Assembly (NCBI GenBank): GCA_017848755.1
Contig: JAFIHI010000253.1
Coordinates: 1-43,044 of the forward strand
Length of the DNA stretch: 43,044 nt
Direction of reading: 5' to 3'
Origin: Nakamurella sp.
Lineage (GTDB): Bacteria > Actinomycetota > Actinomycetes > Mycobacteriales > Nakamurellaceae
Shown: positions 4,743-42,492 of the stretch, one piece after another
Position numbering within the stretch: the stretch's first letter is position 1
Layout: each line of letters starts with the position of its first letter
Made by a program: the position numbers and the translations under genes
The notes under the pieces: model-generated
Seen by the model: only the letters and a program-made list of their open reading frames with translations
Databases searched by the model: none
Told to the model about the DNA's origin: nothing

Positions 4743-6257
4743 CTAGAAGGCGTATCGCCCGGCGCGGCGGGCCAGCCGTTGGCTTTCGGGGCGGGTCGAC
4801 AGGACGGCGATCTCCTGGGCCAGCACGGCGCCCATGCGCCGGGCAAACGCCGCCGGCTCGTCGGCGGCGTCGTCATATTCGGGCACCAGCCGATCCACGA
4901 TCCCGCGCCGGCGCATGTCCACCGCCCGGATCTGCTGCGCCGCAGCCATCTCCGCCGCGAATGACGGGTCGCCGCGGTGCACGATCGCCGACGCGCCCTC
5001 CGGCGGAAGCGGCGAGAGCCACGCATGCCGGGCCGCTATCACCCGGTCGGCCGGCAGCAGTGCCATGGCGCCGCCACCCGAGCCTTCGCCGAGCAGCACG
5101 CACACCGTCGGAGCCGGCAGCGCGACGAGATCCGCCAGGCAGCGCGCGATCTCGCCGGCCAGGCCACCCTCCTCGGCCTCCTGGGACAGCGCCGCGCCGG
5201 GGGTGTCGATCACCGAGACCAGCGGCAGATCCAGTTCGTCGGCCAGGCGCATGCCCCGCCGCGCGACCCGCAGCGCCTCCGGCCCGAGCGGACCGTTCTT
5301 GCCCTGCCAGGCGCGATCCTGGCCGAGCAGCACGCACGGCATCCCGGAGAACCGCGCGAGCACCAACATCAGCCCGGGTTGCGCCTCGCCCTGGCCGGTG
5401 CCGTTCAGCGGCACCACGTCGGTTGCAGCGAAGCGCAGCAGCTCGCGCACGCCGGGGCGTTCCGGCCGTCGTGTCCGCTGGATCGACTCCCACGCGGTCT
5501 CCTCGGGTTGTTCCTCCTCCGCGGCGGCGTCGACGGGCGGCATGCCGCGGCGGCGGGCACTGAGCACCGTGAGCGCCCGGGACGCGATCTCCGGCAAGCG
5601 GTGCGCCGGCAGCACCGCGTCGAGAAGGCCGTGCCGCAAAAGGTTCTCGGCCTGCTGCACACCGGGCGGGAAGGGCTTGTCGTACAGCGCCTGGAAGACC
5701 TTGGGTCCCAGGAAGCCGATCAGCGCACCCGGCTCGCCGACCGTCACATGGCCGAGCGATCCCCACGAGGCGAACACCCCGCCGGTGGTGGGATGTCGCA
5801 GATACACCAGATACGGCAGGCCGGCGGCGCGGTGTGCGGCGATCGCGTCGGTGATGCGCACCATCTGCACGAACGCGGCGGTGCCCTCCTGCATTCGCGT
5901 GCCGCCGGAGGCGGTGGCGGCCAGCAGCGGCAGGCCCTCGGCCGTCGCGCGCCGGATGGCGGTATCCAGCCGGTCCGCCGCGGCGATGCCGATGGACCCC
6001 GCCAGGAAGCGAAACTCGTTGGCCACGACGGCAACCCGAAATCCCCGGATCGTGCCGGAGCCGGTGAGGATCGCCTCGTCGACGCCGGACTTCTCCTCCG
6101 CCGCGCGGATGTCCGCCAGGTACTCCGGGTCCAGATCGTCCGGACGCACGATCGGCGAATCCCAGCTGACGAACGACCCCGTGTCCAGCACGGTGTCGAT
6201 CAGCTCGGGCGCGGACAGACGAGGAGGCTTTCCGGCCGCGGTCGCGGACGTCGTCAT
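4743..6257 (-). CDS. accD3: Acyl-CoA carboxylase carboxyltransferase, AccD3-like (fused beta/alpha)
   Basis: This 504-residue protein joins both carboxyltransferase halves. The N-terminal half carries the beta-type core (GSGTIRGFRVAVVANEF, then ATASGGTRMQEGT, near residues 66-130). The C-terminal half carries the alpha-type core (VSVIDTPGAALSQEAEEGGLA and GEGSGGGAMALL). There is no N-terminal zinc ribbon. Size and layout match mycobacterial AccD3, a divergent carboxyltransferase whose acyl-CoA substrate is not firmly established. The ATG at 6257 overlaps the upstream caiB stop by 4 bp and is preceded by AAGGTGA, implying translational coupling. The last ~50 residues include PEYDDAADEP, which carries a weak match to the dispersed 13-bp motif. 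Confidence 0.82.
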   Translation of the reverse strand: MTTSATAAGKPPRLSAPELIDTVLDTGSFVSWDSPIVRPDDLDPEYLADIRAAEEKSGVDEAILTGSGTIRGFRVAVVANEFRFLAGSIGIAAADRLDTAIRRATAEGLPLLAATASGGTRMQEGTAAFVQMVRITDAIAAHRAAGLPYLVYLRHPTTGGVFASWGSLGHVTVGEPGALIGFLGPKVFQALYDKPFPPGVQQAENLLRHGLLDAVLPAHRLPEIASRALTVLSARRRGMPPVDAAAEEEQPEETAWESIQRTRRPERPGVRELLRFAATDVVPLNGTGQGEAQPGLMLVLARFSGMPCVLLGQDRAWQGKNGPLGPEALRVARRGMRLADELDLPLVSVIDTPGAALSQEAEEGGLAGEIARCLADLVALPAPTVCVLLGEGSGGGAMALLPADRVIAARHAWLSPLPPEGASAIVHRGDPSFAAEMAAAQQIRAVDMRRRGIVDRLVPEYDDAADEPAAFARRMGAVLAQEIAVLSTRPESQRLARRAGRYAF

Positions 6258-7627
6258 ACCCGGTCACCTTCGTTCGCGGCGACGCCCAACCAATCGAGCA
6301 CAGCCTCGGTGTGCTGGCCGAGCAGCGGCGGGGCGAGGTGATCACGGTGCCATTCGGAGCCGTCGCCGTCGAAGAACCGCAGCGGCGGACCGGGCAGTTC
6401 GACCGTGCCGAGCACCGGATGGTCGACGTCGATCAGTAGGCCCTGCGACCTCGTCTGTTCCCACTCGTAGACCTGCTGCAGGTTCTTGACCTGCCCCGAC
6501 GGCACGCCGATCTCGTCGAGCTTGGCGAGCAGATCGCGGCAGGTGTACCCGGCGAATGCGTCGTCGACGGCGGCCCGCACGGCGGTGGCGTTCCGCACCC
6601 GGTCGGCGTTGGTGGCGAATCCGTCCGCGTCCGTCGGCAGCCCGAAAGCCGGGGCGAACTTCTGCCACAGCCCCTCGGAGCCGATGGAGATCTGCACGGC
6701 GCCGTCGGACGCGTGGAACAGGCCGTAGGGACAGATCGAGGGATGGTGCGGCCCTTGGGCTTTCGGGATTTCGCCGGCCACGGTCCACCTCGTGCCCTGG
6801 TAGGCGTGCACCCCGACGACGGCGGCGAGCAGCGAGGTACGCACCAGGCCGCCCCTGCCGGTGATCGACCGCTCGTGCAGTTTGCCGAGCACGCCGAAGG
6901 CGCCGTACATGCCGGCGAGCAGGTCGGAGATCGGCACGCCCATCTTGGTCGGGGTGTCCGGGTCGGGGCCCGTCATCGACATGAGACCGCCTTCGCCCTG
7001 GGCGATCTGGTCGTAGCCGGCGCGACCGCCTTCGGGTCCGTCGTGGCCGAAGCCGGAGATGGACAGCACCACCAGGCCGGGGTTCAGCTCCATGAGCCGC
7101 GCGAGCGGGAAGCCGAGCCGGTCGAGCACTCCGGGCCGGAAGTTCTCCAGCAGCACGTCGGACCGCCGCACCAGTTCGGTGAGGGCGCGGGCCCCCAGAT
7201 CGCTCTTCAGGTCGAGCGTCACGGATTCCTTGTTCCTATTGCAGGACAGGAAATATGTGGAGATCGGGTCCGCGCTGGGGTCGCTGTGCGTGTCTCCGCC
7301 CGGCGAGTGATCGGCAGCTGCGGCCCCCGTATCGCCGGAAGAACCGCCTATGACGATGTTCCGGGCCGCACCCTCGTCGGTCCCGGTGACCCCGACTGCG
7401 GCGGCGCGGCGTGCGGGCACATCCGCGGCGGTATCACGGCGCCGCTCCGCAAGCTCCGCGGCGGTGACGAACGGCGGCCCCCAGCCGCGTGTGTCGTCCC
7501 CGCGCCCGGGCGTCTCGATCTTGATCACGCGAGCGCCGAGGTCGCCGAGCATCATGGCGGCGTGCGGCCCCGCCAGCGCCCGGGTCAGATCCAGCACGGT
7601 GATATCGGACAGCGGACCTGCACTCAC
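6254..7627 (-). CDS. CaiB/BaiF family (family III) CoA-transferase with in-frame insertion
   Basis: This 457-residue protein begins LSDITVLDLTRALAGPHAAMML, the family III start, with DLGARVIKIETPGRGDD and later YFLSCNRNKESVTLDL. A conserved Asp that carries the acyl intermediate is expected in the QIAQGEGGLMSMTG-DPDTPTKMG region. Relatives have about 390-400 residues; the excess is a low-complexity Ala/Asp/Gly stretch at residues ~55-122 (DNA ~7260-7465) splitting two normally adjacent conserved segments. That insert contains an exact copy of the 13-bp motif, read as RNIVIGG. The GTG start follows GGGAG. It probably forms an operon with accD3. Family members move CoA between carboxylic acids; the substrate is unknown. 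Confidence 0.88.
   Translation of the reverse strand: MSAGPLSDITVLDLTRALAGPHAAMMLGDLGARVIKIETPGRGDDTRGWGPPFVTAAELAERRRDTAADVPARRAAAVGVTGTDEGAARNIVIGGSSGDTGAAAADHSPGGDTHSDPSADPISTYFLSCNRNKESVTLDLKSDLGARALTELVRRSDVLLENFRPGVLDRLGFPLARLMELNPGLVVLSISGFGHDGPEGGRAGYDQIAQGEGGLMSMTGPDPDTPTKMGVPISDLLAGMYGAFGVLGKLHERSITGRGGLVRTSLLAAVVGVHAYQGTRWTVAGEIPKAQGPHHPSICPYGLFHASDGAVQISIGSEGLWQKFAPAFGLPTDADGFATNADRVRNATAVRAAVDDAFAGYTCRDLLAKLDEIGVPSGQVKNLQQVYEWEQTRSQGLLIDVDHPVLGTVELPGPPLRFFDGDGSEWHRDHLAPPLLGQHTEAVLDWLGVAANEGDRV
7349..7361 (+). repeat. Dispersed 13-bp motif, exact copy (inside caiB insertion)
   Basis: TATGACGATGTTC on the + strand, inside the low-complexity insertion of the leftward CoA-transferase gene, where it is read as N-I-V-I. 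Confidence 0.75.
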
Positions 7628-7895: not shown

Positions 7896-10301
7896 TCAGT
7901 CTCGTCCGTCGGACGCCGGGCGCGGGCCTCCGACGCCGCGGCCACTCGCGCCGCCGACGCGCGACAGCGCCGCGAGGTAGGCGACGGCGCCAGTCAGCAG
8001 CAGCACCCCGACCCCGATGACGGTGATTGCCCGCGGCAGCGCCTCGAGGGTGCTGGTGTCGAAGAGCAGCAACTTCGCGACTGCCACGGCAGCGAGCCCG
8101 AGGCCTCCGAGCCGAACGATCAGCCGCCGGAAACCCTGCCACAGCAGGGCCAGCGCGACGAGCGTCACGAAGATCGTCACCACGATCTGCCCGGCCTGGT
8201 GGCCGGCATGGGTCGGTGAGGCGGCGTACGCGAGCACCATCGTGACGGCCAGCAGACCGTAACAGGCCACCGCGCTGCAGCCCACCAGGGTCCAGCCCAT
8301 GACGGTGATGCGGTGCTGTTCCGGGGTCGCGGTTCCGGCGGGCGCAGCAGCCGGCCCGCGGTGGGGGCCGCTGACGCCCGTCCCTCCGTCCGGACTGCCG
8401 GTCGCGGCGGCGGCCCGGGCCGCGGTCACCCGTGCTGCTGTCACTCGTGCGACGGCCCACCAGGCGGCAAAGCACATGGCGATGACGCAGATGCCGCCCG
8501 GCAGCACCACGGTCCAGCCACGCGTCATCAGTCCGCCGCCGTCCACGAGGCCGTTCGGCGGCCAGCTCAGCAGGTCGGACGGGTGCAGGGCGGGCCCCGC
8601 AGCGAGCAGGGCGACGCCGGCTGCGGCGAGAGCCGGTGCGAGCAACCACGTGAGCCGCTCGACAGCCACGATCACCAGGATCACCGTCGCCAGTACCGCC
8701 CACGACACGCTGCGGGCATCCCCACCCAGCAGCCGCAGCAGCGAGACGCCCGCCAGCGCGATCGTCCCGCACCATGCAACGACGCGCGCCGAGGTATGCC
8801 CGAGCGGCGCGTGCCTCCCGCTCGCCCAGGCCACGACCGCGAAGAGCACGGTCAGCACCGCCGAGATGACGCCCGCAGTCAGATTCTGAACCCCCGCCGG
8901 TTCGACCACGACGAGCGCGACGGCGAGCAGCCCGGCACCGATCGACAACGAGACCGTAGCCACCGCGCTGTGCAGCCGGGCCTCGTCGCGGAGCCGGTTG
9001 TGCTCATGGAAATCGGCGTAGTCGCGCGCTATCTGTTCCGGATCGTGCGAGCGGGGGCGCACGGGGAACGGGCCGGGATCGATCGGCGCCCGGCCGGTGG
9101 CCCAGCGGCCGATAAACGTGGCCCACGCGATGGCCACGACCACGATCGCCAGCACGAGCCCGACCGGTGTGAACACATCGATGGCCATCGCCATGAGGAA
9201 GGCGAAGACGGCCGCGATCCCAGCGCCCGCCCACGCGAAAATCCCGAGCCCGAGGAGCAGGCACGCCGCGCCGCCGGCGACCATGACCGCCTCGAAACCG
9301 AGGACGCTCGCGGAGAACCCTCCCCCCACCACCGGAGCAAGCAGGCCGCTCACCGCGAAGGATGCGCCCGCCAGCCACGGTTCGCGCCACGCGACCGCCA
9401 TGCTCACCGCAACGACGACGATCAGCGCGGACGCGCCGTGCCCGACGAGCGGCGGAAAGAGGTCGGCGAGCCGCACGGCGCCCGCCACGGCCAGGTATTC
9501 CACAGCGAGCCCCGTGCTCCCGATCGTCACAGCGAGCGTGCCGTGCGCGGGTCGGCGGTGCAGCAGGGCGGCACCGCCCACCAGAACGGCGCCGAGGACG
9601 AAGCCGATGATCACGCGCGCGAGCGGGCCGAGGATTCCCTGTTGAGCGGCGATCACGAGTAGGAGCACGATGCCGAGCACTGTGACACCGCCGCCCACCC
9701 AGCCCAGCACCTTGAGTCCGGCGGTGTCGGCCCAGGAGGCGCCTGCCTTTGGCACAGGTATCGACGCGGCCGTCGGCACTCCGGGCGGCGCCGCCATCGG
9801 CATCTCGTTGGGGCGCGGGCGGGCAGTCGCACCGGCCCAGGACGGAAGCGGACCGGGCACGGCACCGACCGGCCCCCCGGCGGACACGAAGTGCCCGGGC
9901 ACGCCGACCGCGCCCTGCGGCACCGGCCACGGTGGAACCGGCTCGGGCGGCATCGGCTGGGGAGGAATTGGCTGGGACGACGCCGGCTGGGGCGGAACCG
10001 ACTGCGGCGCAAAGGATACCGGCCCCGTCGTCACAGAGCTGGCGGGCGGCTCAGCGGCGGGCGGCGTCGCCGAGCCCGTCGATCGGCCGAGGTCCGTGGT
10101 GGGTTCGGCCGCCGGGACATCGCCCAACCCCGGAACAACGTCATATTCGGGGACTACAGGCCCGGATGCCTGTCGCCGCGCGACCTCGTCCACGCGCGCG
10201 GTGATCTCGTTCAGTTGCGCGGCGAGGGCGGCCAGCGACCGCTGCAGCTCCGCTAGCTCCGCCGGGTCGACGTGCGCCGCCGGGTCGGTGCCATCGCTCA
10301 C
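7896..10301 (-). CDS. DUF2339-type polytopic membrane protein
   Basis: The 801-residue protein has three parts. Residues 1-50 form a short coiled coil (ELAELQRSLAALAAQLNEITARVDEVA). A disordered Pro/Gln-rich linker to about residue 180 contains short repeats such as PQPIPPQPMPPEPVPP. The rest is a long run of 15 or more membrane helices, with AARVI-GFVLGAVLVGGAALLHRRP and similar stretches. This matches the DUF2339 family of unknown function. The GTG at 10301 is preceded by GAGGGGGC and starts just before the coiled coil; earlier in-frame starts lack a ribosome site. The linker contains an exact dispersed motif (10133-10145), read PEYDVVPG. No function is assigned. Confidence 0.8.
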   Translation of the reverse strand: MSDGTDPAAHVDPAELAELQRSLAALAAQLNEITARVDEVARRQASGPVVPEYDVVPGLGDVPAAEPTTDLGRSTGSATPPAAEPPASSVTTGPVSFAPQSVPPQPASSQPIPPQPMPPEPVPPWPVPQGAVGVPGHFVSAGGPVGAVPGPLPSWAGATARPRPNEMPMAAPPGVPTAASIPVPKAGASWADTAGLKVLGWVGGGVTVLGIVLLLVIAAQQGILGPLARVIIGFVLGAVLVGGAALLHRRPAHGTLAVTIGSTGLAVEYLAVAGAVRLADLFPPLVGHGASALIVVVAVSMAVAWREPWLAGASFAVSGLLAPVVGGGFSASVLGFEAVMVAGGAACLLLGLGIFAWAGAGIAAVFAFLMAMAIDVFTPVGLVLAIVVVAIAWATFIGRWATGRAPIDPGPFPVRPRSHDPEQIARDYADFHEHNRLRDEARLHSAVATVSLSIGAGLLAVALVVVEPAGVQNLTAGVISAVLTVLFAVVAWASGRHAPLGHTSARVVAWCGTIALAGVSLLRLLGGDARSVSWAVLATVILVIVAVERLTWLLAPALAAAGVALLAAGPALHPSDLLSWPPNGLVDGGGLMTRGWTVVLPGGICVIAMCFAAWWAVARVTAARVTAARAAAATGSPDGGTGVSGPHRGPAAAPAGTATPEQHRITVMGWTLVGCSAVACYGLLAVTMVLAYAASPTHAGHQAGQIVVTIFVTLVALALLWQGFRRLIVRLGGLGLAAVAVAKLLLFDTSTLEALPRAITVIGVGVLLLTGAVAYLAALSRVGGASGRGVGGPRPASDGRD
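10133..10145 (-). repeat. Dispersed 13-bp motif, exact copy (in DUF2339 linker)
   Basis: Reverse-strand TATGACGTTGTTC, flanked by short complementary arms (CCCCGAA before it and CCGGGG after it). It lies in the disordered linker of the membrane protein, read E-Y-D-V-V. Confidence 0.75.
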
Positions 10302-10416: not shown

Positions 10417-11235
10417 TCAGCGGTGCGTTTCGACCCAGGCGCGCCAGGTGGTCGGCGGCCGGTGCAGCAGGGCGGCGAGAACGGTGCCGTTGCCGCAGAT
10501 GCCGTGCAGGTCGTAGTAGTCGAACATGGCCTGCAGGAGGGGCGGGCGGGCGGCCGCGACGATCGGGTCCCAGTGGTTTTCGACCGTGACGCCGCGGCCG
10601 AGCACCTCCGCGGCGATCTCGGCCATCTCCGCCGTGGTCAGCACCTCGGGCCCGGCCAGCTCGTAGGTGGCGAACCGGTGTCGCGGGTCGGTGAGCGCGC
10701 AGGCGGCGACCTCGGCGACGTCGTCCAGCGCCACCGGGGTGAAGCGCGCCTGCGCGGTGTACGGCAGCGGCCAGATCCCGTTGTCCCGCACGGAATCCCA
10801 GACGCCCAGGGCATTCTCGAAATACGAGGCCGGTTGCAGAATGGTCCAGTCGAGATCGGACGTCTGCAGCGCCGCCTCGACCTCGGCCTTGGCGAGGTGG
10901 TGCGGCATGTCGGGCGCGTACGGGTGGATCACCGAGTGGTAGACCAGGCGCGTCGGTCCGGACTGCTCGCAGGCGCCCATGACGCTGTTCGCGAGCGCCA
11001 CTTCGTCCGGAAACATGTTGGGCGCGATGAGGTATACCGCGTCGGAGCCGTGTAACGCGTCGCCCACGGCCTCCGTGTCGGTGAGGTCGACGGCGACCGC
11101 CTCGGCCGCGCCCGGCACGCCGGCCGCGGCCTGCTCCGGGCGGTGCACCAGGGCGCGCACCGGCACGCCGCGACGCGAGAGTGCCGCTGTCACCGCGCGT
11201 CCCGTCTTCCCGGCCGCACCGGTCACCGCGATCAC
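10417..11235 (-). CDS. NmrA-like NAD(P)-binding oxidoreductase
   Basis: The 272-residue protein opens with a Rossmann nucleotide-binding motif (VTGAAGKTGRAV), followed by HRPEQAA and DLTDTEAVGDALHGSDAVYLIAP as in NmrA/atypical SDR proteins. It lacks the classical YxxxK catalytic pair, typical of this group, which often bind NAD(P) as redox sensors or quinone reductases. The GTG start overlaps the hyuB stop by 4 bp, so it is the third cistron of the hyuA-hyuB operon. LANSVMG at 10978-10990 coincides with a one-mismatch copy of the dispersed motif. The substrate is unknown. Confidence 0.85.
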   Translation of the reverse strand: MIAVTGAAGKTGRAVTAALSRRGVPVRALVHRPEQAAAGVPGAAEAVAVDLTDTEAVGDALHGSDAVYLIAPNMFPDEVALANSVMGACEQSGPTRLVYHSVIHPYAPDMPHHLAKAEVEAALQTSDLDWTILQPASYFENALGVWDSVRDNGIWPLPYTAQARFTPVALDDVAEVAACALTDPRHRFATYELAGPEVLTTAEMAEIAAEVLGRGVTVENHWDPIVAAARPPLLQAMFDYYDLHGICGNGTVLAALLHRPPTTWRAWVETHR

Positions 11236-13157
11236 AGCAGGTCCACCTCCGCGAAGTGCTTGCCGCCCGCCAACGTTGCGTAGCCGGGACCGCGGTCAAA
11301 GAACGCCGCCTCTGTCCCGGCTGCGATCGCGGCCTCCCGTTCGGCGCGTTTGGCAGCCCGCAGCGCCTCGGTCGCCGCCTCGTCGACGATCACGATGCCG
11401 CCCGGCGCGCCCGTTAGAACGACGCCGTAATCGTCCCGCGCACCGGCGACAGACACCTTGCCCCAGCGCACATCTCGCGCGCCCTCGACGGTCGGCCGGT
11501 CGAACGGGTCGCCCCATCCGCCGCCGCCGGTGGTGCGTACCCGGATCACCTCACCCGCGCGAACCGGCGCGGCATCCTCCAGGCCCTCGACCTCCCGTTC
11601 GTTCGGCCCGCCCGGGTCGATGGTCACCTGGAAGGGCTTCCCGGCCCGGCCGCCCTTCACGCCCCAGCAGGACAGGATGGACCGGTCGGCGACGCACATG
11701 AAATCGGTGTCGATCTCCATCCGGTAGTGCTTCTCGTAACCCAGGCCGCCGCGGTACCGTCCCGCGCCGCCGGAATCGACTGCGAGGCCTAGCCTTTCGA
11801 TGCGGAACGGGAACCGGGACTCCGTCACCTCCGTCGGCACGTTGGAGGAGTCCGGCACCACGTGCACCGTGTCCTCCCCGTCGGCGTAATAGCGCCCCCC
11901 GGAGCCGCCGCCGAGGATTTCCCGCATGAGATAAGGGTTTCCGTCGCGATCCATCCCGTGAAAGCCGACGTAGCGGATGGTCTCCTGATCGGCGGGCATC
12001 TTGCCGTCCACGGCCTTGGCGATCACCCCGGCCAGCACGCCGAGAAGCCGCAATATGACGAACGTTCGGGCATTGGTCGGTGCCGGGAAGACCGGGGTCA
12101 GCAGTGTTCCCGGACCGGGGAAGCGCATCTCGATGAGCGGGACTACTCCCTCGTTGACGTCGAGTTCGGCCATCCGCTCGGGGGTGTCGGCCAGATTGCG
12201 CAGGATCGGCGCCAGCCACTTGGCGAGGAACACCCCGTCGGAGTAGTTGGCGCAGTGGTTGATCGGCCCCTTGGCCTGCGGGCCGGTGCCGGTGAAGTCC
12301 AGGATGATGCGCCCGTTCGTGACGCCGTCCCCGTCAGAGAGCTTGGTGAGGGTGATGCGCTGCCGGTGCAGCTTCGGTTCCTCGACCCCGTCGTGCTCCG
12401 CGTAATCCTCCCAGACATAGCTGCCGTCGGGGATCTTGGACAGGATCTCGGTGCGATAGATCTCGGTGGTGTTCTCGATGATCGCGTCGAAGCATGCCTG
12501 CACGGTATCCACGCCGTAGCGGGTGAAAAGTTCACCGAGCCGTCGGGCACCCATCAGGCAGGCGGAACACTCCGCGTCCAGGTCCGCGGCCAGCGATTCC
12601 GGCATGCGGGAGTTGCGCGTCATGATGGTGAGCGCGGCCTGGTTCGGCACACCCTGGTCCCACAGCTTGATGGGCGGGACCATCAGGCCCTCTTCGTAGA
12701 CGCTGCGGGCATGCGACGGCATGGAACCCGGTACGGCACCGCCGATGTCGTCGTGGTGGCCGAAGGCCTGCACGAAGGCGACGACCTTCGGCTCGCCGCC
12801 GTCCTCGGAATGGAAGACCGGCACTGTAACGCACATGTCGGGCAGGTGCCCGATGCCGCCCTCGGAGGAGTAGACGTCGTTGTGGAAGAAGACGTCGCCC
12901 GGCTTCATGGTGTCGATCGGGAAGTCCCGGACGATCGGCTGCACCAGCGCAGAGTAGGAGCGGCCGGTGAGCTTACGCAGGTGGATGTCGTGGATACCGG
13001 CGCGGAAGTCGTGCGCGTCGCGGATCATCGGCGAGCGGGAGGTGCGGCCGATCGCCGTCTCGACCTCCTTCTCGACGGAAGCCAGTGTGCCGGCAACGAT
13101 CTCGACCAGCACCGCGTCGGCGGCCGGCTTCTGCGCAGGGGCGGTGGCGGCGGTCAT
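11232..13157 (-). CDS. hyuB: Hydantoinase B / 5-oxoprolinase-type subunit
   Basis: This 641-residue protein matches the HyuB family: RDAHDFRAGIHDIHLRKLTGRSYS near the N-terminus, PGDVFFHNDVYSSEGGIGHLPDM, a VPGSMPSHARS region, and a C-terminal VRTTGGGGWGDPFDR signature. HyuB pairs with the ATP-binding HyuA subunit to open cyclic amides (N-methylhydantoin, 5-oxoproline) or, in acetone-carboxylase relatives, to carboxylate ketones. The ATG overlaps the end of hyuA by 4 bp, so the two subunits are translationally coupled. The exact substrate cannot be read from sequence. At about 12053 a TATGACGAACGTTC string resembles the dispersed motif with one extra base. Confidence 0.9.
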   Translation of the reverse strand: MTAATAPAQKPAADAVLVEIVAGTLASVEKEVETAIGRTSRSPMIRDAHDFRAGIHDIHLRKLTGRSYSALVQPIVRDFPIDTMKPGDVFFHNDVYSSEGGIGHLPDMCVTVPVFHSEDGGEPKVVAFVQAFGHHDDIGGAVPGSMPSHARSVYEEGLMVPPIKLWDQGVPNQAALTIMTRNSRMPESLAADLDAECSACLMGARRLGELFTRYGVDTVQACFDAIIENTTEIYRTEILSKIPDGSYVWEDYAEHDGVEEPKLHRQRITLTKLSDGDGVTNGRIILDFTGTGPQAKGPINHCANYSDGVFLAKWLAPILRNLADTPERMAELDVNEGVVPLIEMRFPGPGTLLTPVFPAPTNARTFVILRLLGVLAGVIAKAVDGKMPADQETIRYVGFHGMDRDGNPYLMREILGGGSGGRYYADGEDTVHVVPDSSNVPTEVTESRFPFRIERLGLAVDSGGAGRYRGGLGYEKHYRMEIDTDFMCVADRSILSCWGVKGGRAGKPFQVTIDPGGPNEREVEGLEDAAPVRAGEVIRVRTTGGGGWGDPFDRPTVEGARDVRWGKVSVAGARDDYGVVLTGAPGGIVIVDEAATEALRAAKRAEREAAIAAGTEAAFFDRGPGYATLAGGKHFAEVDLL

Positions 13158-15265
13158 GCGGACGCTCCTTCGCGCGTGATGATGAGGTTGCCGAATCGGT
13201 CGATCTCCGCGGCGAATCCGGGGTGCACCGGCACGGTGGAGCCGAACTCCTGCACCACCGCCGGCCCCGATACCCGATGCCCCGCACCGAGTTTCGCGCG
13301 ATCATAGATCGTGGCTGGCATCCACGAGTCGTAGAACACGCGGCGCGTCTCGATCACCGCCGAGGCGACATCGCCTGCTGCGACAGGAATCTCGCGAATC
13401 TCCGGCCGCGGGATCGGTCCGATCCCGGTCGCCCGCAGGTTCACCCACTCGACCGGCTGGTCGGTGCGGCCGGCGAAGTCGTATCCGTACAGCGCGTGGT
13501 GCGCGGCATGGAACGCCGCCTCCACGGAATCGGCCCACTTGGCGGTGATCTCACCGTCCGGGCAGGTGACCCGCACCTCGTAGGCCTGGCCGAAGTAGCG
13601 CAGGTCGGCGGTGCGCTCGAAAACGTGATCGGAGTCGGCGAATCCCTCCAAGCGCAGCGCCTCCGCGGCTTTGCCGGTGAGTTCGGCATAGATGGCGTCG
13701 ACCGCGCCCAGATCGAGCGAATCATGGCGCGCGACATACGTTTGTACGTAATCGTTCCGGACGTCTACCGTCAGCAGCCCGTAGGCCGACACGTTCCCCG
13801 GGTTCGGCGGCACCAACACCGCGGGCAGGTTCAGAATGTCCATCAGCCGGCACGCGAGCAGCGACCCGGAACCGCCGAACGTCACCATCGGGAAGTCCCG
13901 CACGTCCAGGCCGCGCTTCACGGTCACCTGGCGCAGTGCGTTCGCCTGGTTCCACGCGGAGATCTCGAGAATGCCTGCCGCGCAGGCTTCCAGCTCCAGA
14001 TCGAGTTTCGCGGCGAGCTCCGTCATACCCGATGTCGCGGCCTCGATGTCGAGGGGGATCTCCCCACCCAACAGGTGCGGAGGAATGCGGCCGAGCACCA
14101 GATGCGCGTCGGTGATCGTGGGCTCGGTGCCGCCCTTGCGGTAGCACAGCGGTCCCGGGTCCGCGCCGGCGGACTGCGGTCCGACCTTGAGTGTGCCCTC
14201 GGGCGAAATCCAGCCGATGGAGCCGCCGCCTGCGCCGACGGTGACCACGTCGATCATCGGGATGCGCGACGGGTACGGGCCGACCCGGCCCTCGGTGGTG
14301 AGCGACGGCTGGCTGTCCTGAATCACGGTGACGTCGGTCGAGGTGCCGCCGCCGTCACAGGTCACCACGGACGGGTACCCGGCCTTCGCCGCGATCACCG
14401 CGGCGCCCAGCGCGCCGGCCGCGGGGCCGGACAGCACCGTCGTGATCGGTTGGTGCACCACCTCTTCCGCCGACAGGACCCCGCCGTTGGAGCGCATGAT
14501 GCTAAACGGGATGTGCCGGCCCGGGTCGAGTTCGGCGAGCCGCGCGGAGATGTTTGCGACGTAGGCGCCGACCTTCGGCTTGACCGACGCGTCGACCAAC
14601 GTGGTCATCGACCGCTCGTATTCGCGGTATTCGCGCAGCACCTGGCTGGAGAGCGACACGACTGCCTCCGGCATGATCTCCCAGATCACGTCCCGCATCG
14701 CGCGCTCGTGCGCGTCGTTCGCGTAGGAGTGCAGCAGGCACACGCCCAACGTTGTGATCCCCTCGGCCTGGAACGCCTCGACGGCGGCGCGCGCGGACTC
14801 ATCATCGAACGGCCGGATCTCGTTGCCGCGGAAGTCGAGTCGCCCGCCGACGGTGCGCACCCGGTCGGCCGGCACGATGCGCGGCGGCTTCACCCAGAAA
14901 TACGAGTTGCCGTATCCGTCGGGCACCGATTGGCGCGCGATCTCCAGCACGAACTCGAACCCCTCGGTGGTGATGAACCCGAGATCGCCGACCTTGCCCT
15001 CCAGGAGCTGGTTCGTGGCGACCGTGGTGCCGTGCGAGATGGACTCGATATCGGCCGGGGTCGCCCCGATCTGGCCGAGGATCTTGTCGACGCCGGTCAG
15101 GAAGCCCTCGGCCGGGTTGGCCGGGGTGGACGGCGTCTTGGTGGTGGCGAGCGCGCCGGTGATCGTGTCCACCGCGACGATGTCGGTGAACGTGCCGCCG
15201 GTGTCCACGCCGATCCGAACGTGCCCGGTGGCCCGCCCGGTGTGGATCTGCTGCTCAGGGTTCAC
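13154..15265 (-). CDS. hyuA: Hydantoinase A / 5-oxoprolinase-type ATP-dependent subunit
   Basis: The 703-residue protein carries the ATP-binding signature GVDTGGTFTDIV at residues 19-30, a second phosphate motif in GGGTSTDVTVI, and the LDIEAATSGMTELAA segment of the HyuA family, with a C-terminal hydantoinase A domain. It would energise ring opening together with HyuB. The GTG at 15265 is chosen because AGAAGGAC precedes it; an in-frame start at 15304 would run through the inverted 13-bp repeat and has no ribosome site. It is the first gene of the hyuA-hyuB-NmrA operon, and the inverted motif pair at 15288-15360 sits directly upstream, overlapping the likely promoter region. Confidence 0.9.
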   Translation of the reverse strand: MNPEQQIHTGRATGHVRIGVDTGGTFTDIVAVDTITGALATTKTPSTPANPAEGFLTGVDKILGQIGATPADIESISHGTTVATNQLLEGKVGDLGFITTEGFEFVLEIARQSVPDGYGNSYFWVKPPRIVPADRVRTVGGRLDFRGNEIRPFDDESARAAVEAFQAEGITTLGVCLLHSYANDAHERAMRDVIWEIMPEAVVSLSSQVLREYREYERSMTTLVDASVKPKVGAYVANISARLAELDPGRHIPFSIMRSNGGVLSAEEVVHQPITTVLSGPAAGALGAAVIAAKAGYPSVVTCDGGGTSTDVTVIQDSQPSLTTEGRVGPYPSRIPMIDVVTVGAGGGSIGWISPEGTLKVGPQSAGADPGPLCYRKGGTEPTITDAHLVLGRIPPHLLGGEIPLDIEAATSGMTELAAKLDLELEACAAGILEISAWNQANALRQVTVKRGLDVRDFPMVTFGGSGSLLACRLMDILNLPAVLVPPNPGNVSAYGLLTVDVRNDYVQTYVARHDSLDLGAVDAIYAELTGKAAEALRLEGFADSDHVFERTADLRYFGQAYEVRVTCPDGEITAKWADSVEAAFHAAHHALYGYDFAGRTDQPVEWVNLRATGIGPIPRPEIREIPVAAGDVASAVIETRRVFYDSWMPATIYDRAKLGAGHRVSGPAVVQEFGSTVPVHPGFAAEIDRFGNLIITREGASA

Positions 15266-15287: not shown

Positions 15288-15360
15288 TATGACGCTGTTC
15301 GCACGCTTCGCGTGGCGGGCCGGTTCGGGGCGATCCGGTTGTGCCGCGAACAGCGTCATA
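15288..15360. repeat. Two exact 13-bp motifs forming a 15-bp perfect inverted repeat
   Basis: TATGACGCTGTTCGC (15288-15302) is repeated exactly as its reverse complement at 15346-15360, with a 43-bp spacer. Both arms contain an exact copy of the dispersed motif (15288-15300 on +, 15348-15360 on -). The pair lies in the 228-bp divergent gap between hyuA and the AbrB antitoxin, 23-95 bp upstream of the hyuA start, a natural place for a regulator to bind. The rest of the gap (15361-15480) shows nothing further. Confidence 0.75.
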
Positions 15361-15480
15361 TCCGATCAACCATGCCCACTCAATCGTGCGGATTCGGCGG
15401 CTATGACGGCAAAACGTGCCAACGCCCCCGGCGATGATCGGTGCGCGGGTTCGGGTCCAACGCAACTGGGATTCGGCTGG

Positions 15481-15486
15481 TAATGT
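15481..15486 (+). promoter_or_regulatory. -10 element of leaderless antitoxin transcript (candidate)
   Basis: TAATGT ends 7 nt before the antitoxin ATG at 15494, and no ribosome-binding site is present. This spacing fits transcription beginning at or next to the start codon, i.e. a leaderless mRNA. Confidence 0.4.
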
Positions 15487-15493
15487 ATTCCCT

Positions 15494-15730
15494 ATGAAGG
15501 CGACGATTGATTCCGTGGGCCGGATCCTGATCCCGAAGCAGCTGCGCGAGGCTCTCGGCCTCACTCCGGGGTCCGAGGTGGACATCTCGCCCTACGGCGG
15601 TGGGCTTGCGGTGCTGCCCGGGGGGCGGACGGCGCGGATCGTGGAGGAGGACGGGAAGCTCGTCGGCGACAGTTCGACGGTTATCACCGACGAGATCATG
15701 TACGCACTCATCGATTCAGGGCGCAAGTGA
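15494..15730 (+). CDS. AbrB/SpoVT-type antitoxin (VapB-like)
   Basis: This 78-residue protein opens MKATIDSVGRILIPKQLREALGLTPGSEVDI, a complete AbrB/SpoVT swapped-hairpin DNA-binding domain. The C-terminal half is acidic and would wrap the toxin. It overlaps the downstream PIN toxin by 4 bp (GTGA), the usual arrangement for coupled antitoxin and toxin synthesis. The start is the ATG directly before MKAT. The antitoxin normally binds its own promoter with the toxin as co-repressor. Recognition as a toxin-antitoxin pair rests on domain type and linkage. Confidence 0.88.
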   Translation: MKATIDSVGRILIPKQLREALGLTPGSEVDISPYGGGLAVLPGGRTARIVEEDGKLVGDSSTVITDEIMYALIDSGRK

Positions 15731-16173
15731 CCTCAGTCCCGCGGATATCCGCGCCGCGGCCCGCGTTTGCCGTGGACACTAGCGTCGTCCTGCCGCTGGT
15801 GCTGCGATCACATCGGGACCGTGAGGTGGTGCGCGGGTGGGCCAGTGGTAAGAATCTGGCACTTGCCGGACATGCCGCAGCGGAGGCGTACTCGGTAATG
15901 ACCCGATATCCGGGCGACGCAAAGTTCGCTCCACTCGACGCGGTCAAGGTCCTGCAGAGCCGGTTTCCCGAGACGCTGTCGCTGCCCGACCACGTCGCGC
16001 GGCGCGTCCCCGAGATCCTCGCCGACGCAGGCGTTTTCGGCGGAGCCGTCTATGACGGGCTCGTCGCACTTGCGGCCCGACAGCACGACCTGCCGGTCGC
16101 GACACGAGACACTCGCGCCCGTCCCACCTACGCCGCGCTCGGAGTGCGCGTCATCGTCGTGCCGACGGGATGA
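15727..16173 (+). CDS. vapC: PIN-domain ribonuclease toxin (VapC family)
   Basis: The 148-residue PIN protein has the four acidic active-site positions: Asp in AVDTSVV, Glu in HAAAEAYSV, Asp in AVYDGLVA and Asp in ATRDTRA. These bind the Mg2+/Mn2+ used to cut RNA. It starts with GTG at 15727, overlapping the AbrB-type antitoxin. An N-terminal extension of ~14 residues precedes the first beta strand. Its stop codon lies inside the left arm of the long inverted repeat at 16169-16235. VapC toxins usually cut tRNA or rRNA; this target is unknown. Confidence 0.9.
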   Translation: MTSVPRISAPRPAFAVDTSVVLPLVLRSHRDREVVRGWASGKNLALAGHAAAEAYSVMTRYPGDAKFAPLDAVKVLQSRFPETLSLPDHVARRVPEILADAGVFGGAVYDGLVALAARQHDLPVATRDTRARPTYAALGVRVIVVPTG

Positions 16174-16235
16174 TCACGGGTTGTGGGGGATTTGTTCCGG
16201 AATCCGCACCAAATCCCACACAACTGGTGATCATC
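16169..16235. terminator. 26-bp inverted repeat spanning both stop codons
   Basis: Arms 16169-16194 and 16210-16235 pair at 23 of 26 positions around a 15-nt loop. The left arm contains the vapC stop (16171-16173) and the right arm contains the copA stop (16231-16233), so the convergent genes end inside one hairpin. A bidirectional terminator is the likely role. Confidence 0.65.
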
Positions 16236-18597
16236 CGAACCGGCGGAGGCGCAGAGAGTTGCTCACCACGAACACCGAGCTGAAGGCCATGGCCGCGCCG
16301 GCGAGGAGCGGGTTCGCCAGGCCGAGCGCGGCGAGCGGGAGCGCGGCGACGTTGTAGGCGAACGCCCAGAACAGGTTTCCCTTGATGGTGCGCAGCGTGC
16401 GGCGGGAGAGCCGGATCGCGTCGCCCGCGGCGCCGAGGTCGCCGCGGACCAGGGTGAGGTCGCTGGCGGCCATCGCCACGTCCGTCCCGGTACCCATCGC
16501 CAGGCCCAGGTCGGCGGCGGCCAGCGCGGGGGCGTCGTTGACGCCGTCGCCGACCATGGCCACCACGGCGCCGCGGTCTTGCAGCCTCTTCACCGCCCGC
16601 ACCTTGTCCTCGGGGAGCACTTCGGCGATGACGTCGTCCGCCCCGATGCCCACCTGCGAAGCGACAGCCGTTGCGACGGTGCGGTTGTCGCCGGTCAGCA
16701 GCAAGGGCCTCAGGCCAAGGCGGCGCAGTTCGGCGATCGCTGAGGCCGAGGTCGGCTTGACGGTGTCGGCGACGGCGAACAGCGCCCGGATTGTCCCGTC
16801 CCATCCGGCGGCCACCACGGTTGCCCCGCCCTTCTCGGCGGCCCGGCCGGCCGTCGCGAGCGCCGGATCGAGCGCCAGGCCGCGCTCAGCCAGCATGGAT
16901 AGCCGACCGACGATGACGGCCCTCCCATCCACAACACCTTGGACACCGTGACCGGCCGTGGCCGAGAACTTCGTCATGGGCGGAAGTTCGGCGACAGACG
17001 CACCCAGCTCCTCGACGGCGCCGCGCACGATCGCCTGCGCGATGGGATGTTCGCTGCCGTTCTCCACGGCCGCGGCCGATCGCAGGAGGTCGGCACGGTC
17101 CACTCCGGGAGCGAGCAGCACATCGGTGAGCGTCATGCGCCCGGTGGTGACGGTGCCCGTCTTGTCCAGCAGAATCGTATCGACTTTCCTAGTGGATTCG
17201 AGGATCTCGGGCCCGCGGATCAGGATGCCGAGCTGCGCGCCGCGGCCGGTGCCGACCAGCAGCGCGGTCGGCGTGGCGAGCCCGAGCGCGCACGGGCAGG
17301 CGATGATGAGCACCGCGACGGCGGCGGTGAACGACGGCTGCACGCCCGAGCCGATGAGCAGGTGCACGGCCAGCGTCCCCAGCGACAGCAGGATGACGAT
17401 CGGCACGAAGACGGCCGAGATGCGGTCGGCCAGCCGCTGTACCGGCGCCTTGCCGGACTGGGCGTCCCGCACCAGCCGGGCCATGTGCGCGAGTTGGGTG
17501 TCCGCGCCGACCCGGGTGGCGCGGACGGTGAGCAGCCCGCCGGCGTTCACCGTGCCGCCGACCACGCGGTCGCCGCGGCCCACCTCCACCGGCACCGACT
17601 CGCCGGTGATCATGGACGTGTCGACGGCCGAGGCGCCGTCTTCGATCTCGCCGTCGGTCGCGATCTTCTCGCCGGGGCGCACCAGGAAGACCTCCCCGAC
17701 GGCGAGCGCGCCGATGGGCACGGTCTGCTCCACACCGTCGCGTAGCACCGTCACTTCCTTCGCGCCGATCTCGGCGAGCGCCCGAAGTGCTTCTCCGGAG
17801 CGACGTTTCGCGCGCGCCTCGAAGTAGCGGCCGGCGAGCAGGAACAGCGTCACCCCCGCGGCGACTTCCAGATAGACCTCCGGCGTGCCGCCCGGGGCCG
17901 GCAGCCATTCGAAGGCCATGCGCATGCCCGGCTCGCCGGCGCCGCCGAGGAAGAGCGCATACAGCGACCAGAGGAAGGCGGCGGACACGCCGACCGAGAT
18001 GAGCGTGTCCATGGTCGCCGCGCCGTGCTTCAGGTTGACGAGCGTCGCCCGGTGGAACGGCCACGCGGCCCATGTCACCACCGGGGCGGCGAGGGTGAGT
18101 GCCAACCACTGCCAGTAGGTGAACTGGATCGCCGGGATCATCGACAGCACGATCACCGGAATGCCCAGCGTCGCGGCGCCGATCAGCCGGGTGCGGAGGG
18201 CGGCGAGTTCGCGGGATTCGCCCGCGGGTGCCTGCGGCGCGGCCTGATCGGCCTCCAGACCGGCTCCGCCCCGCGCCCCGCTGCGTGCGACACTTGTTGT
18301 CGCGGAACGGGTATCGATCTGAACTTCGTCATCGGCGGCACCCTCGACGCCACGGGCCGCCGCGCTCGGGAACAGCGGGGCGGACGGCGCGGCGGTGTAG
18401 CCGGTGGCCTTGACGACCCCGATCAGATCGTCCACCGTGAGCGACTCGGGCAGCGACACCCGGGCCTGCTCCGTCGCGTAGTTCACGGTGGCCTGCACCC
18501 CGTCCAGCCGATTGAGCTTCCGCTCAACTCGCGCGGCACACGAGGCGCACGTCATCCCGCCGATGTCGAGTTCGACGGTGTGGGTGGCGGTGCTCAC
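16231..18597 (-). CDS. copA: Copper-exporting P1B-type ATPase
   Basis: This 788-residue protein has an N-terminal metal-binding domain (GMTCASC, residues 14-20) and the P-type core: TGES at 331-334, the copper-pore motif CPC at 434-436, DKTGT at 478-482 (phosphorylated Asp478), HP at 517-518 and GDGVND at 683-688. YN (748-749) and MxxSS (770-774) in the last helices mark the Cu(I) subgroup. It pumps Cu(I) out of the cytoplasm. The GTG at 18597 follows AGGAAAGG; longer in-frame starts would read through the upstream gap. The linker at residues ~75-130 is long and low in complexity and contains a weak motif copy (18321-18333). It is the last gene of csoR-copZ-copA. Confidence 0.95.
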
Positions 18598-18920: not shown

Positions 18921-18933
18921 TATGACGATGTTC
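18921..18933 (+). repeat. Dispersed 13-bp motif, exact copy (csoR-copZ gap)
   Basis: TATGACGATGTTC on the + strand in the 81-bp gap between csoR and copZ, 20 bp past the csoR stop and 50 bp before the copZ start. Confidence 0.75.
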
Positions 18934-18952
18934 GTGTCCGCGCGGCGTCGGC

Positions 18953-21517: not shown

Positions 21518-22542
21518 TCAGCGAGATCGCCGAGTATGACGACGTTCTCGCCGAACCCGCCGGCGAAGCACCATCGGCACCGATGCGCGTGCTGGTCGCC
21601 GGCGGTGCCGGATACATCGGCTCCGTGGTGACCCGGCTGCTGCTGGCCGAGGGGCATCGGGTGACCGTTCTAGACGACCTGTCCACTGGGCATGCCGACG
21701 CGGTGCCCGACGGTGTCGAGCTGGTGCAGTCGGACATCGCCGACGCCGGAACGGTTCTCGGCCGCGGTGGCTTCGACGGGGTGTTGCACTTCGCTGCGAA
21801 GTCCCTGGTCGGCGAGTCGGTATCGAACCCCGCGAAGTACTGGCGGACGAACGTTTGCGGCACTCGTGCCCTGCTGGACGCGGTCGCCGAGCACCATGTG
21901 CCACGCTTCGTGTTCTCCTCGACCGCCGCGGTCTACGGGGAGCAGGACGCGATCCCGATCACCGAGGACGCGCCCACCAGGCCCACGAATCCCTATGGGG
22001 CGTCGAAACTGTCGGTCGACATGATGCTCACCGGCGAGTGCGCCGCGACCGGGCTCGGCGCGGTGAGCCTGCGTTACTTCAACGTCGCCGGGGCGGCCTG
22101 GGGCGCGGGCGAGCGGCACGGCACCGAGACACATCTGATCCCGCTGGCCCTGGACGCGGCCGCCGGGCGCCGCGGCCCGTTGACGATCTTCGGCGAGGAT
22201 TGGCCCACCCCGGACGGCACCCCGATCCGCGACTACATCCACGTTGCCGACCTCGCCCGGGCGCACGTGTCCGCACTCGGCGCCGCGCGGCCCGGCCGTC
22301 ACCTGATCTGCAATCTCGGTTCGGGGCAGGGCTTCTCGGTGCGCCAGGTGCTCGACACCATCACGGACGTGACCGGCCGCGACGTGCCGCAGCAGGTGGG
22401 TCCGCGGCGCGCCGGGGACCCGGCCCGGCTGATCGCCTCCCACGACAGGGCGCGCGCGGAACTGGGCTGGCAGCCGCAACACGATCTGGCGGACATGGTC
22501 CGCGACGCCTGGGATTTCGCGCGGGGCCTGGCGAATCGATGA
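21514..22542 (+). CDS. galE: UDP-glucose 4-epimerase with N-terminal extension
   Basis: This extended SDR has the NAD motif GGAGYIGS and the catalytic YxxxK in NPYGASK, and ends normally. The GTG at 21514 overlaps the galT stop by 4 bp and has GGGAGGTGG upstream. It adds 23 residues (VISEIAEYDDVLAEPAGEAP and three more) before MRVLVAGGAG, where most epimerases begin; the ATG at 21583 is the alternative but has no good ribosome site. The extra DNA holds a one-mismatch copy of the dispersed motif (21535-21547). The enzyme interconverts UDP-galactose and UDP-glucose. Confidence 0.93.
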   Translation: MISEIAEYDDVLAEPAGEAPSAPMRVLVAGGAGYIGSVVTRLLLAEGHRVTVLDDLSTGHADAVPDGVELVQSDIADAGTVLGRGGFDGVLHFAAKSLVGESVSNPAKYWRTNVCGTRALLDAVAEHHVPRFVFSSTAAVYGEQDAIPITEDAPTRPTNPYGASKLSVDMMLTGECAATGLGAVSLRYFNVAGAAWGAGERHGTETHLIPLALDAAAGRRGPLTIFGEDWPTPDGTPIRDYIHVADLARAHVSALGAARPGRHLICNLGSGQGFSVRQVLDTITDVTGRDVPQQVGPRRAGDPARLIASHDRARAELGWQPQHDLADMVRDAWDFARGLANR

Positions 22543-22588: not shown

Positions 22589-23746
22589 ATGAGCGCTACC
22601 GAGACCTTCCGCGCGCGTTTCGGGGCGGATCCCGCCGGGGTGTGGTCCGCGCCCGGGCGGGTGAACCTGATCGGCGAGCACACCGACTACACCGGCGGTC
22701 TGGTGCTGCCGTTCGCGATCGACGCCCGCGCGCAGGCGGCGATCGGTCCGAACGGCGCCGGTGTCTTCCGGGTGACCTCGGCGCAACGCGACAACGACGT
22801 CATATCCGTTGCGGCGCAGGACCTCCGGCCGAGCTCACCGGCGGTGAAGGGGTGGCCGGCGTATCCGCTGGGCGTCGTCTGGGCCCTTTACGAACGCGGC
22901 ATCGACGTACCACCGCTCGACATCGCGCTCGACTCCGCCGTGCCCGCGGGCGCCGGGCTCTCCTCGTCGGCGGCGGTGGAATGCGCGGTCGCACTGGCGA
23001 TCTCGGACCATCTCGAGTGCGGACTCGATCGGCCCACGCTGGCGCGGATCGCACAGCGAGCGGAGAACGAGTTCGTCGGCGTCCCATGCGGTCTGATGGA
23101 CCAGATGGCCTCAGCGGCGAGCACCGAGGGGCATGCGCTCTTCTTCGACATCGGCGCGGACACGACCTGGCACATCCCGTTCGACACGGCAGCGGCGAGC
23201 CTAGCCATGCTCGTCATCGACACCAGGGCGCACCATTCGCTGGCCGACGGTGAATACGCGAAGCGGCGCGCGGATTGCGAGACAGCCGCCGGGCAACTCG
23301 GTGTCGAGCTGTTGTCGCAAGTTCCGTTCGAGAGGCTCGATCACGCGCTCGCAGGGCTCACCGGTCCCCGTGCCACCGTGCTGCAGCGCCGCGTGCGGCA
23401 CGTGATCACCGAGAATCAGCGGGTGCGCGAGACCGTGGCGCTGCTCCGCGAGGAGCACATCGCTGCGATAGGCCCGCTGCTCTCGGCATCGCACGCCTCG
23501 CTCCGGGACGACTACGAGGTTTCCTGCGCGGAACTGGATCTCGCAGCGGACACCGCGGAGACGGCCGGCGCTCTCGGCGCCCGGATGGTCGGCGGCGGCT
23601 TCGGCGGGTCGGTGATCGCGCTCACCGCGGCGGACCGGGCGGGCGTGGTCGCGAACAGCGTCATCGACGCTTTTTCGCGCGCCGGATACACGCGGCCGGT
23701 CGTCCGCAGCGTCACTCCCGCCGCCGGCGCCCGCCGCGACCTCTGA
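22589..23746 (+). CDS. galK: Galactokinase
   Basis: This 385-residue GHMP kinase carries the galactose signature GRVNLIGEHTDYTGG (residues ~24-38), the ATP loop PAGAGLSSSAAVE, and the C-terminal GARMVGGGFGGSVIAL. It phosphorylates galactose at C1. The ATG at 22589 lies 46 bp after galE with a GAGG-type site just upstream. Two sequences resembling the dispersed motif fall in it: NDVIS (22792-22804, two mismatches) and ANSVID (23653-23665, one mismatch). A TTCG-loop hairpin follows the stop. Confidence 0.95.
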   Translation: MSATETFRARFGADPAGVWSAPGRVNLIGEHTDYTGGLVLPFAIDARAQAAIGPNGAGVFRVTSAQRDNDVISVAAQDLRPSSPAVKGWPAYPLGVVWALYERGIDVPPLDIALDSAVPAGAGLSSSAAVECAVALAISDHLECGLDRPTLARIAQRAENEFVGVPCGLMDQMASAASTEGHALFFDIGADTTWHIPFDTAAASLAMLVIDTRAHHSLADGEYAKRRADCETAAGQLGVELLSQVPFERLDHALAGLTGPRATVLQRRVRHVITENQRVRETVALLREEHIAAIGPLLSASHASLRDDYEVSCAELDLAADTAETAGALGARMVGGGFGGSVIALTAADRAGVVANSVIDAFSRAGYTRPVVRSVTPAAGARRDL

Positions 23747-25696: not shown

Positions 25697-25815
25697 ACCC
25701 GTTTCTTGCTCCTTCATGGCTGCTTCACAACGATGGGGCCGATTCCATCACGGAACCGGCCCCGTCGCCGAGCGACACGTTCGACGGCCGGCCGATGCGA
25801 CACGGGCCGGCCACC

Positions 25816-25828
25816 GAACAGCGTCATA
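25816..25828 (-). repeat. Dispersed 13-bp motif, exact copy (binding protein-malF gap)
   Basis: Reverse-strand TATGACGCTGTTC, 21 bp past the stop of the leftward binding-protein gene and 119 bp before the malF-type start. The remainder of the gap shows no clear terminator. Confidence 0.75.
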
Positions 25829-27181: not shown

Positions 27182-27510
27182 GAACGCGTCCTTTCCGTGG
27201 GCAAACCACGAGTCATTGATCCGCGGCATCTCACGGCGGGCAACCGATGCCCGCCGCATGCTGATGCTATCCCCCTAGGATGCTCATTCATAGACAGAAC
27301 TCAGGTCATTACTGCATTGTTATAATCTATGATTAGACAAAATGTCGCCTCATAGTCACGGAGACCCGAGAGCGGGACGCGAGCCGACGATCGAGTAGGG
27401 TCAAGACACCGACTGCATATGTCAAGAATATGGTCAAGACACGGCCGAATATGACGATGTTCGCGACCGCACCGCTCACGATCCGCCACGCCCCATCGGG
27501 AGGTGACCTG
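27182..27510. promoter_or_regulatory. AT-rich divergent control region between binding-protein gene and ROK gene
   Basis: This 329-bp gap is much richer in A/T than its surroundings at 27260-27360. It contains TATAAT (27321-27326), overlapping a perfect small dyad TAATC-TAT-GATTA (27323-27335), a plausible ROK operator covering the importer promoter. I could not fix a convincing -35. Near the ROK gene an exact dispersed motif (27450-27462) and a GGGAGGTGA ribosome site occur. No gene is supported here. Confidence 0.5.
27450..27462 (+). repeat. Dispersed 13-bp motif, exact copy (upstream of ROK gene)
   Basis: TATGACGATGTTC preceded by CGAA and followed by GCG, 49 bp upstream of the ROK GTG start. 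Confidence 0.75.
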
Positions 27511-34490: not shown

Positions 34491-34566
34491 CGGCCCATCC
34501 TCGCATGCCGACCCGCAGCGCCCAGTGCCGCGCCCGAGCCCGACGATCGCGACGGCGCGCGGACGC

Positions 34567-34579
34567 GAACAGCGTCATA
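34567..34579 (-). repeat. Dispersed 13-bp motif, exact copy (overlaps thioesterase stop)
   Basis: Reverse-strand TATGACGCTGTTC. It supplies the TGA stop (34577-34575) of the thioesterase gene and lies 77 bp upstream of the peptidase start. Confidence 0.75.
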
Positions 34580-42304: not shown

Positions 42305-42367
42305 GCTGACGGTGCTGACGGTGCTGACGGTGCTGACGGTGCTGACGGTGCTGACGGTGCTGACCGT
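42305..42367. repeat. 9-bp tandem repeat, seven units
   Basis: GCTGACGGT is repeated seven times head to tail; only the last unit differs (GCTGACCGT). It lies 22 bp after pntB and about 125 bp before the thioredoxin start. Period 9 would keep frame if translated, but no frame here belongs to a real gene. Copy number is likely variable between strains. Confidence 0.9.
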
Positions 42368-42492
42368 GCGCCGGACCGGCGGGCGCGATGTCGGCGTCTC
42401 GGATACCCTGGGGGGTGTCCGTCCAGCGGAATACCGCACCGTCGGTGAACGTTGAGCCGGGTACGAGCATCAACGAGCGCAAGGAGACCCCC

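Follow-up and report, generated by a model that had tools for sequence, protein, structure and literature searches.

The 43,044-nucleotide stretch of Nakamurella sp. DNA analysed here (the window) carries hyuA, which encodes hydantoinase/oxoprolinase A, on the minus strand at 13154–15265, and, on the plus strand, a MazE/AbrB-type antitoxin gene (15494–15730) with a PIN-domain toxin gene downstream of it (15727–16173). Between the divergent genes two copies of a short motif face each other: copy 1, TATGACGCTGTTCGC, at 15288–15302 (+; matrix score 29.3), and its exact reverse complement, copy 2, at 15346–15360 (−; score 34.9, extended match TCGGATATGACGCTGTTCGCGGC). The arms match over exactly 15 bp, ending on both sides, and enclose a 43-bp spacer (15303–15345), giving 73 bp overall. 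The likely hyuA start is the GTG at 15265, with AGAAGGA before it, and the pair begins 23 nt upstream. The original prediction of a perfect 15-bp inverted repeat with a 43-bp spacer upstream of hyuA is borne out by the sequence, as is its statement that no two copies lie closer anywhere in the window, the runner-up (2591/2695) being weaker and 104 bp apart. With ~25 motif sites in 43 kb, our own arithmetic gives ~0.8 neighbouring pairs at ≤58 bp by random placement, so that one pair at 58 bp is roughly the chance expectation; elsewhere in the genome tighter pairs are known (18–26 bp start to start). The 91-nt pair region is predicted to fold into a strong hairpin (−49 kcal/mol), and no known RNA family reached its Rfam gathering score within the window.

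In the nearest motif-bearing relative, Actinobacteria bacterium 69-20 (G115), the focal segment aligns colinearly and without gaps, and the two copies start 58 bp apart as they do in the window. Copy 1 is unchanged there and copy 2 reads TAGGGCGTTGTTCGC, i.e., carries three substitutions. The spacer is likewise colinear and an empty site is absent, which argues that there is no 73-bp unit: the proposed comparison of syntenic loci, run against G115, returned no indel, and what had been suggested to be a MITE-like 73-bp element with terminal inverted repeats differs between the genomes by substitutions only. For congeners further removed, the region upstream of hyuA did not align to the window. 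With hyuA 96% identical between the two genomes, the decay of copy 2 in G115 speaks against the pair being required locally.

The same motif recurs along the window on both strands. Minus-strand sites lie at 2591–2605 (score 17.9), 6244–6258 (27.0), 10131–10145 (23.7; the G115 allele has a tandem 9-bp half-site duplication), 16964–16978 (22.7), 22790–22804 (20.1; intragenic, with a gap-free orthologue that lacks the motif), 23651–23665 (27.8; substitutions weaken the G115 allele), 25814–25828 (24.0), 31049–31063 (27.4), 34565–34579 (20.8), and 37672–37686 (28.6). Plus-strand sites lie at 2695–2709 (22.4; pointing away from the site at 2591), 7349–7363 (27.1), 10978–10992 (22.8; intragenic), 18921–18935 (29.4), 21535–21549 (31.2), 27450–27464 (33.1), and 30328–30342 (26.3; with a tandem half-site). 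A further copy lies within hyuA itself (14013–14027, minus strand), where it encodes G-M-T-E-L-A and where gap-free orthologues in motif-free congeners differ.

A dispersed motif restricted to two genomes

The family consensus is aTCGrrTATGACG(c/a)TGTTCGCggc (~22 bp). Across 175 strict intergenic sites it comprises A at −6, C and G at −4/−3 (95%), purines at −2/−1, TATGACG (90–100%), then C/A, T (75%), and GTTC (97–99%), after which G C G G C follows with declining conservation, a weak tail past the core. Constraint is loose at the two positions that separate ATGACG from GTTC, and single copies are non-palindromic.

Allowing ≤2 mismatches, TATGACGNNGTTCG has 30 matches in the window vs. 3.35 in dinucleotide shuffles, and in the window's genome (G000, 3.85 Mb) the 15-mer occurs at 272 places per strand, where the reversed control has 2 per strand. 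At ≤1 mismatch, CGNNTATGACGNNGTTCG is found 703 times in G000 (345 + 358) and 778 times in G115 (376 + 402), vs. 1–6 times in each of the 15 other congeners (controls, 0–3). Of the 395 genomes searched in the class, four contain exact CGNNTATGACGNTGTTCG, G000 185 times and the other three once each; among 250 genomes of the order, G000 and G115 alone stand out. A GTDB genome scan with a 19-base form gave, among the matches listed, Actinobacteria bacterium 69-20 and isolated single matches. The motif was present in 113 viral stretches with one match each among the matches listed, which suggests that there is no motif-enriched phage. In an unsupervised count, the most over-represented 10-mers in both G000 and G115 were those of the motif, and no comparable 10-mer class was found in the congeners G108 or G101.

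Densities were taken from a weight matrix built from 233 sites, with sites counted at score ≥14; our own scripts supplied the matrix as well as the gene calls and site classes. An unselected stretch of G115 contig, 537 kb long and unbiased, has 36 sites per 100 kb (our first set of regions had been picked around exact matches and is biased upward in density), vs. 0 sites in 352 kb of G108 and G101. Extrapolated from this density, each carrier genome would hold about 1,600 sites. The motif evidence comes from these two carriers, both draft assemblies of uncultured organisms. Dispersal of the same sequence across the whole genome also speaks against a role of the pair that is specific to hyuA.

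Genomic context of the sites

At score ≥16 we counted 387 sites, of which 191 are intergenic vs. ~61 expected (~3x), and 184 of the 375 that could be classified (about half) lie within called genes, a share that is approximate, as are start sites, given the simple gene caller. The strongest sites (score ≥30) are mostly intergenic (92 between genes, 27 inside). Tandem, divergent, and convergent gaps all contain sites; in tandem gaps their orientation relative to the genes is 60 same vs. 52 opposite, and they are commoner near the upstream stop than near the downstream start. Intragenic sites use preferred frames, giving GMTxFA, YDxVR, or ANSVI peptides. A promoter or terminator element was rejected on the lack of any orientation preference or preference for convergent gaps, and a replication-oriented signal of the Chi/KOPS type on the absence of strand bias along 537 kb, where sites occur on both strands.

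Neighbours <200 bp apart are about as frequent as under random placement, and 30 of 32 such neighbours in the sampled DNA, a few of them the same pair in both genomes, are in opposite orientation. Neighbour orientation also alternates along the unselected 537-kb contig (104 of 171 vs. 86 expected, p = 0.004). Even spacing, a possible mark of an uptake function, was not found there, the gap CV of 1.54 reflecting long site-free islands; the longest such islands in the G115 contig are for the most part of lower G+C, and those examined carry accessory metabolic genes.

Constraint and origin of the sites

The G000/G115 alignment covers 170 kb at 90.9% identity and allows 76 sites to be compared, 63 of them gap-free. 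Over these 63, the 13 core columns mismatch at 3.5% vs. 13.8% in the flanks (p = 4e-21), the free NN columns mismatch at 16.7%, and 44 cores are identical vs. 9 expected. A constrained core with drifting NN columns is as would be expected of a sequence recognised by a protein. The original prediction of a bound protein keeps its general part, in that core columns are constrained and NN columns drift at the flank rate, and loses its local one, in that the recogniser is likely to act genome-wide, as an uptake or chromosome protein, and not as a hyuA regulator. Not one of the 76 compared sites shows a clean insertion of the whole motif; the 13 gapped cases are 9-bp tandem half-site duplications, two 24-bp hairpin insertions beside the motif, or poor alignments.

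Intragenic sites offer a view of how copies arise. Fifteen in-gene sites align to motif-free congeners without a gap; a few of these alignments may overrun the gene end, and some of the sites are counted once in each genome. Their cores are less similar (identity 0.42) than their flanks (0.62), which indicates that substitutions created the motif in place. The clearest such case is the hyuA site at 14013, which reads GGTATGACGGAGCTCGC vs. GGGGTGGCCGAATTGGC, GGGATCGGTTCCCTCGC, and others in congeners (alignment drawn from L031–L034). Lineage-specific DNA, present in one of the two genomes only, is poor in sites: 42 kb of it contain 3, whereas the 337 kb common to both contain 149 (p = 2e-5). 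The 19.4-kb segment found only in G115 beside the focal locus has 0.

Two kinds of length variation accompany the motif. Tandem duplications of a 9-bp half-site, TATGACGNN, occur within it (window 10131 and 30319; L024, L084, L071, and L283) and are length-polymorphic between G000 and G115. In G000 a 24-bp hairpin, GGGGGTACCTCCCGCTTGCGGGGGA, is present in a few copies (L076 near 2402 and 6888; L074 near 17150 on the plus strand and again on the minus strand; the window's minus strand near 40800), most of which directly adjoin ATGACG. For two of them G115 has an empty site, and the hairpin thus appears either to insert at the motif or to be carried along with it.

Type IV pilus and competence genes

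Both carriers possess a type IV pilus locus with two PilM proteins, PilB with MshEN, PilT, PilC, and a short N-methyl pilin, along with PilN/PilO-like and minor pilin-like proteins. PilM is present in 4 of 17 genus members, both carriers included, and ComEC in all 17; in G000, the genome in which ComEA was checked, a ComEA-type protein adjoins ComEC. A pilus locus of this kind is also found in G019 and G032, two congeners with no comparable motif, and no other motif dialect appeared in 140–160 kb from each of the pilus-bearing congeners G019, G032, and G003. The resulting pilus–motif link (2 of 2 carriers vs. 2 of 15 others, kinship ignored) is weak. We rejected the match of the short pilin to Pfam ComP_DUS (22.2 bits, below the cut-off of 27.3) as receptor evidence: the pilins of motif-free congeners match likewise, so that it carries no weight. 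Two PilM genes per pilus locus (L316, 3389–4609 and 9935–11026) are seen in both carriers and one in pilus-bearing congeners.

A candidate DNA uptake sequence

On sequence evidence, the best reading, and one towards which we lean, is that the dispersed motif is a DUS-like DNA uptake tag. One short motif is extremely over-represented; it lies on both strands with no chromosome-orientation bias, partly within genes and enriched outside them; it is conserved in place and under-represented in recently acquired DNA; and type IV pilus, ComEA, and ComEC genes are all present, although two pilus-bearing congeners still lack the motif. Taken together, the abundance, the placement on both strands and partly within genes, the in-place origin, the constraint, the restriction to one lineage, and the absence from acquired DNA make up the known DUS signature. 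Published features of DNA uptake enhancing sequences (35–65% in ORFs with non-coding DNA above expectation; not palindromic, ~10% as inverted repeats, and no orientation bias; PMC1939737) match the distribution of the motif and so support the uptake reading. The Neisseriaceae dialects were likewise first spotted as over-represented 10-mers (PMC3630211).

In the proposed mechanism, the tag would be bound by a surface or pilus-associated receptor, leading to preferential uptake of own-lineage DNA, and transformation with recombination would then favour tagged alleles, so that copies would arise, and be kept in place, by substitution. We infer both the recognition of the tag in uptake and the protein that would perform it. 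As for origin, we put at about even the chance that a self-recognition uptake sequence evolved independently in an actinomycete lineage, served by a Gram-positive type IV pilus and a receptor unlike ComP. Pili-dependent transformability is possible in Actinobacteria, as in Micrococcus luteus (PMC6370729). The literature searched describes uptake sequences for two proteobacterial families only (Neisseriaceae and Pasteurellaceae) and yielded no report of one in actinobacteria.

Like the motif, the Neisseriaceae DUS, which is read by the minor pilin ComP, is lineage-specific and non-palindromic, with copies that number in the hundreds to thousands. These occupy both strands, fall partly within genes and are enriched between them, and include some inverted pairs; relatives lack it, and its carriers have a type IV pilus and ComEC. 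Unlike the DUS, the motif is unrelated in sequence to GCCGTCTGAA, longer (~22 bp), and less dense, and is a candidate tag of an actinomycete host. The Pasteurellaceae USS resembles it in being long, with a strong core and weaker flanking positions, and in a copy number of the same order, and differs in sequence and in phylum; the motif has GC-rich flanks and a putative function. Should the uptake reading prove true, Actinomycetota would offer an independent case, found in two species and missing from their congeners, in which the beginnings of such a signature could be followed and which could help to tell whether it is driven by uptake bias or by selection. Sequence-specific natural transformation would then also be implied for a lineage in which the literature searched records none.

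Alternative explanations

The alternation of neighbour orientation is not required by uptake and counts against that reading, and absence from recent acquisitions would also be expected of any anciently established, selected motif. One alternative, which we consider less likely than uptake, is that the sites bind an intracellular, lineage-specific protein that organises the chromosome or regulates globally, with close inverted pairs acting cooperatively or in looping. The bipartite core with its free NN between constrained halves, the opposed close pairs and overall alternation, and the intergenic enrichment would all suit such a protein. Yet ~1,600 sites of such length and conservation would be a large number for a regulator, about half of them are intragenic and alter residues, their orientation relative to genes in tandem gaps is neutral, they lie more often near an upstream stop than near a start, and they lack the strand bias expected of replication-oriented signals. 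Should the motif nonetheless be a chromosome-protein site, it would still be an unusually dense, lineage-restricted, and conserved signature.

More improbable is a REP-like or MITE-like family of short repeats whose transposase is now lost and whose close inverted pairs would be REPIN-like units. REP/REPIN elements with RAYT transposases share with the motif short dispersed repeats, intergenic enrichment, and close inverted pairs, and the mainly intergenic position of high-scoring copies, the weak tail past the core, the hairpin GGGGGTACCTCCCGCTTGCGGGGGA with its two empty G115 sites, and an inverted dispersed repeat of G108's own fit this account. Against it, no Y1 (RAYT-type, Y1_Tnp) transposase is present in G000 or G115, insertion polymorphism of the whole motif is absent from the compared sites, in-gene sites arose without length change, constraint falls on the core and not on the flanks, and the copies are singly non-palindromic and far from essentially extragenic.

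Least credible is a function confined to this intergenic region, as an operator of hyuA or of the toxin–antitoxin genes or as a terminator: the proximity to the hyuA start and the strong predicted hairpin are in its favour, against which stand the decay of copy 2 beside a conserved hyuA, the missing toxin–antitoxin genes at the G115 locus, the motif's other copies genome-wide, and, for a terminator, the divergent context and the want of a T-run. Under the uptake reading, the pair upstream of hyuA would be two genome-wide tags that chanced to be neighbours; they would form a hairpin in RNA, and a hyuA-specific role is not indicated.

Three further features were noted in passing. Window positions 15444–16237, which hold the toxin–antitoxin genes, correspond in G115 to the 19.4-kb segment (C33, 352459–371875), a replacement beside hyuA that encodes an oligopeptide ABC transporter and four beta-lactamase-family proteins. 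A 9-bp tandem repeat, GCTGACGGT, is reiterated several-fold within a coding region at 42305–42369 of the window. The dispersed inverted repeat of the congener G108 (L298–L305), a different sequence, GGGACAACCCCGCTACGC, occurs ~9 times in 152 kb.
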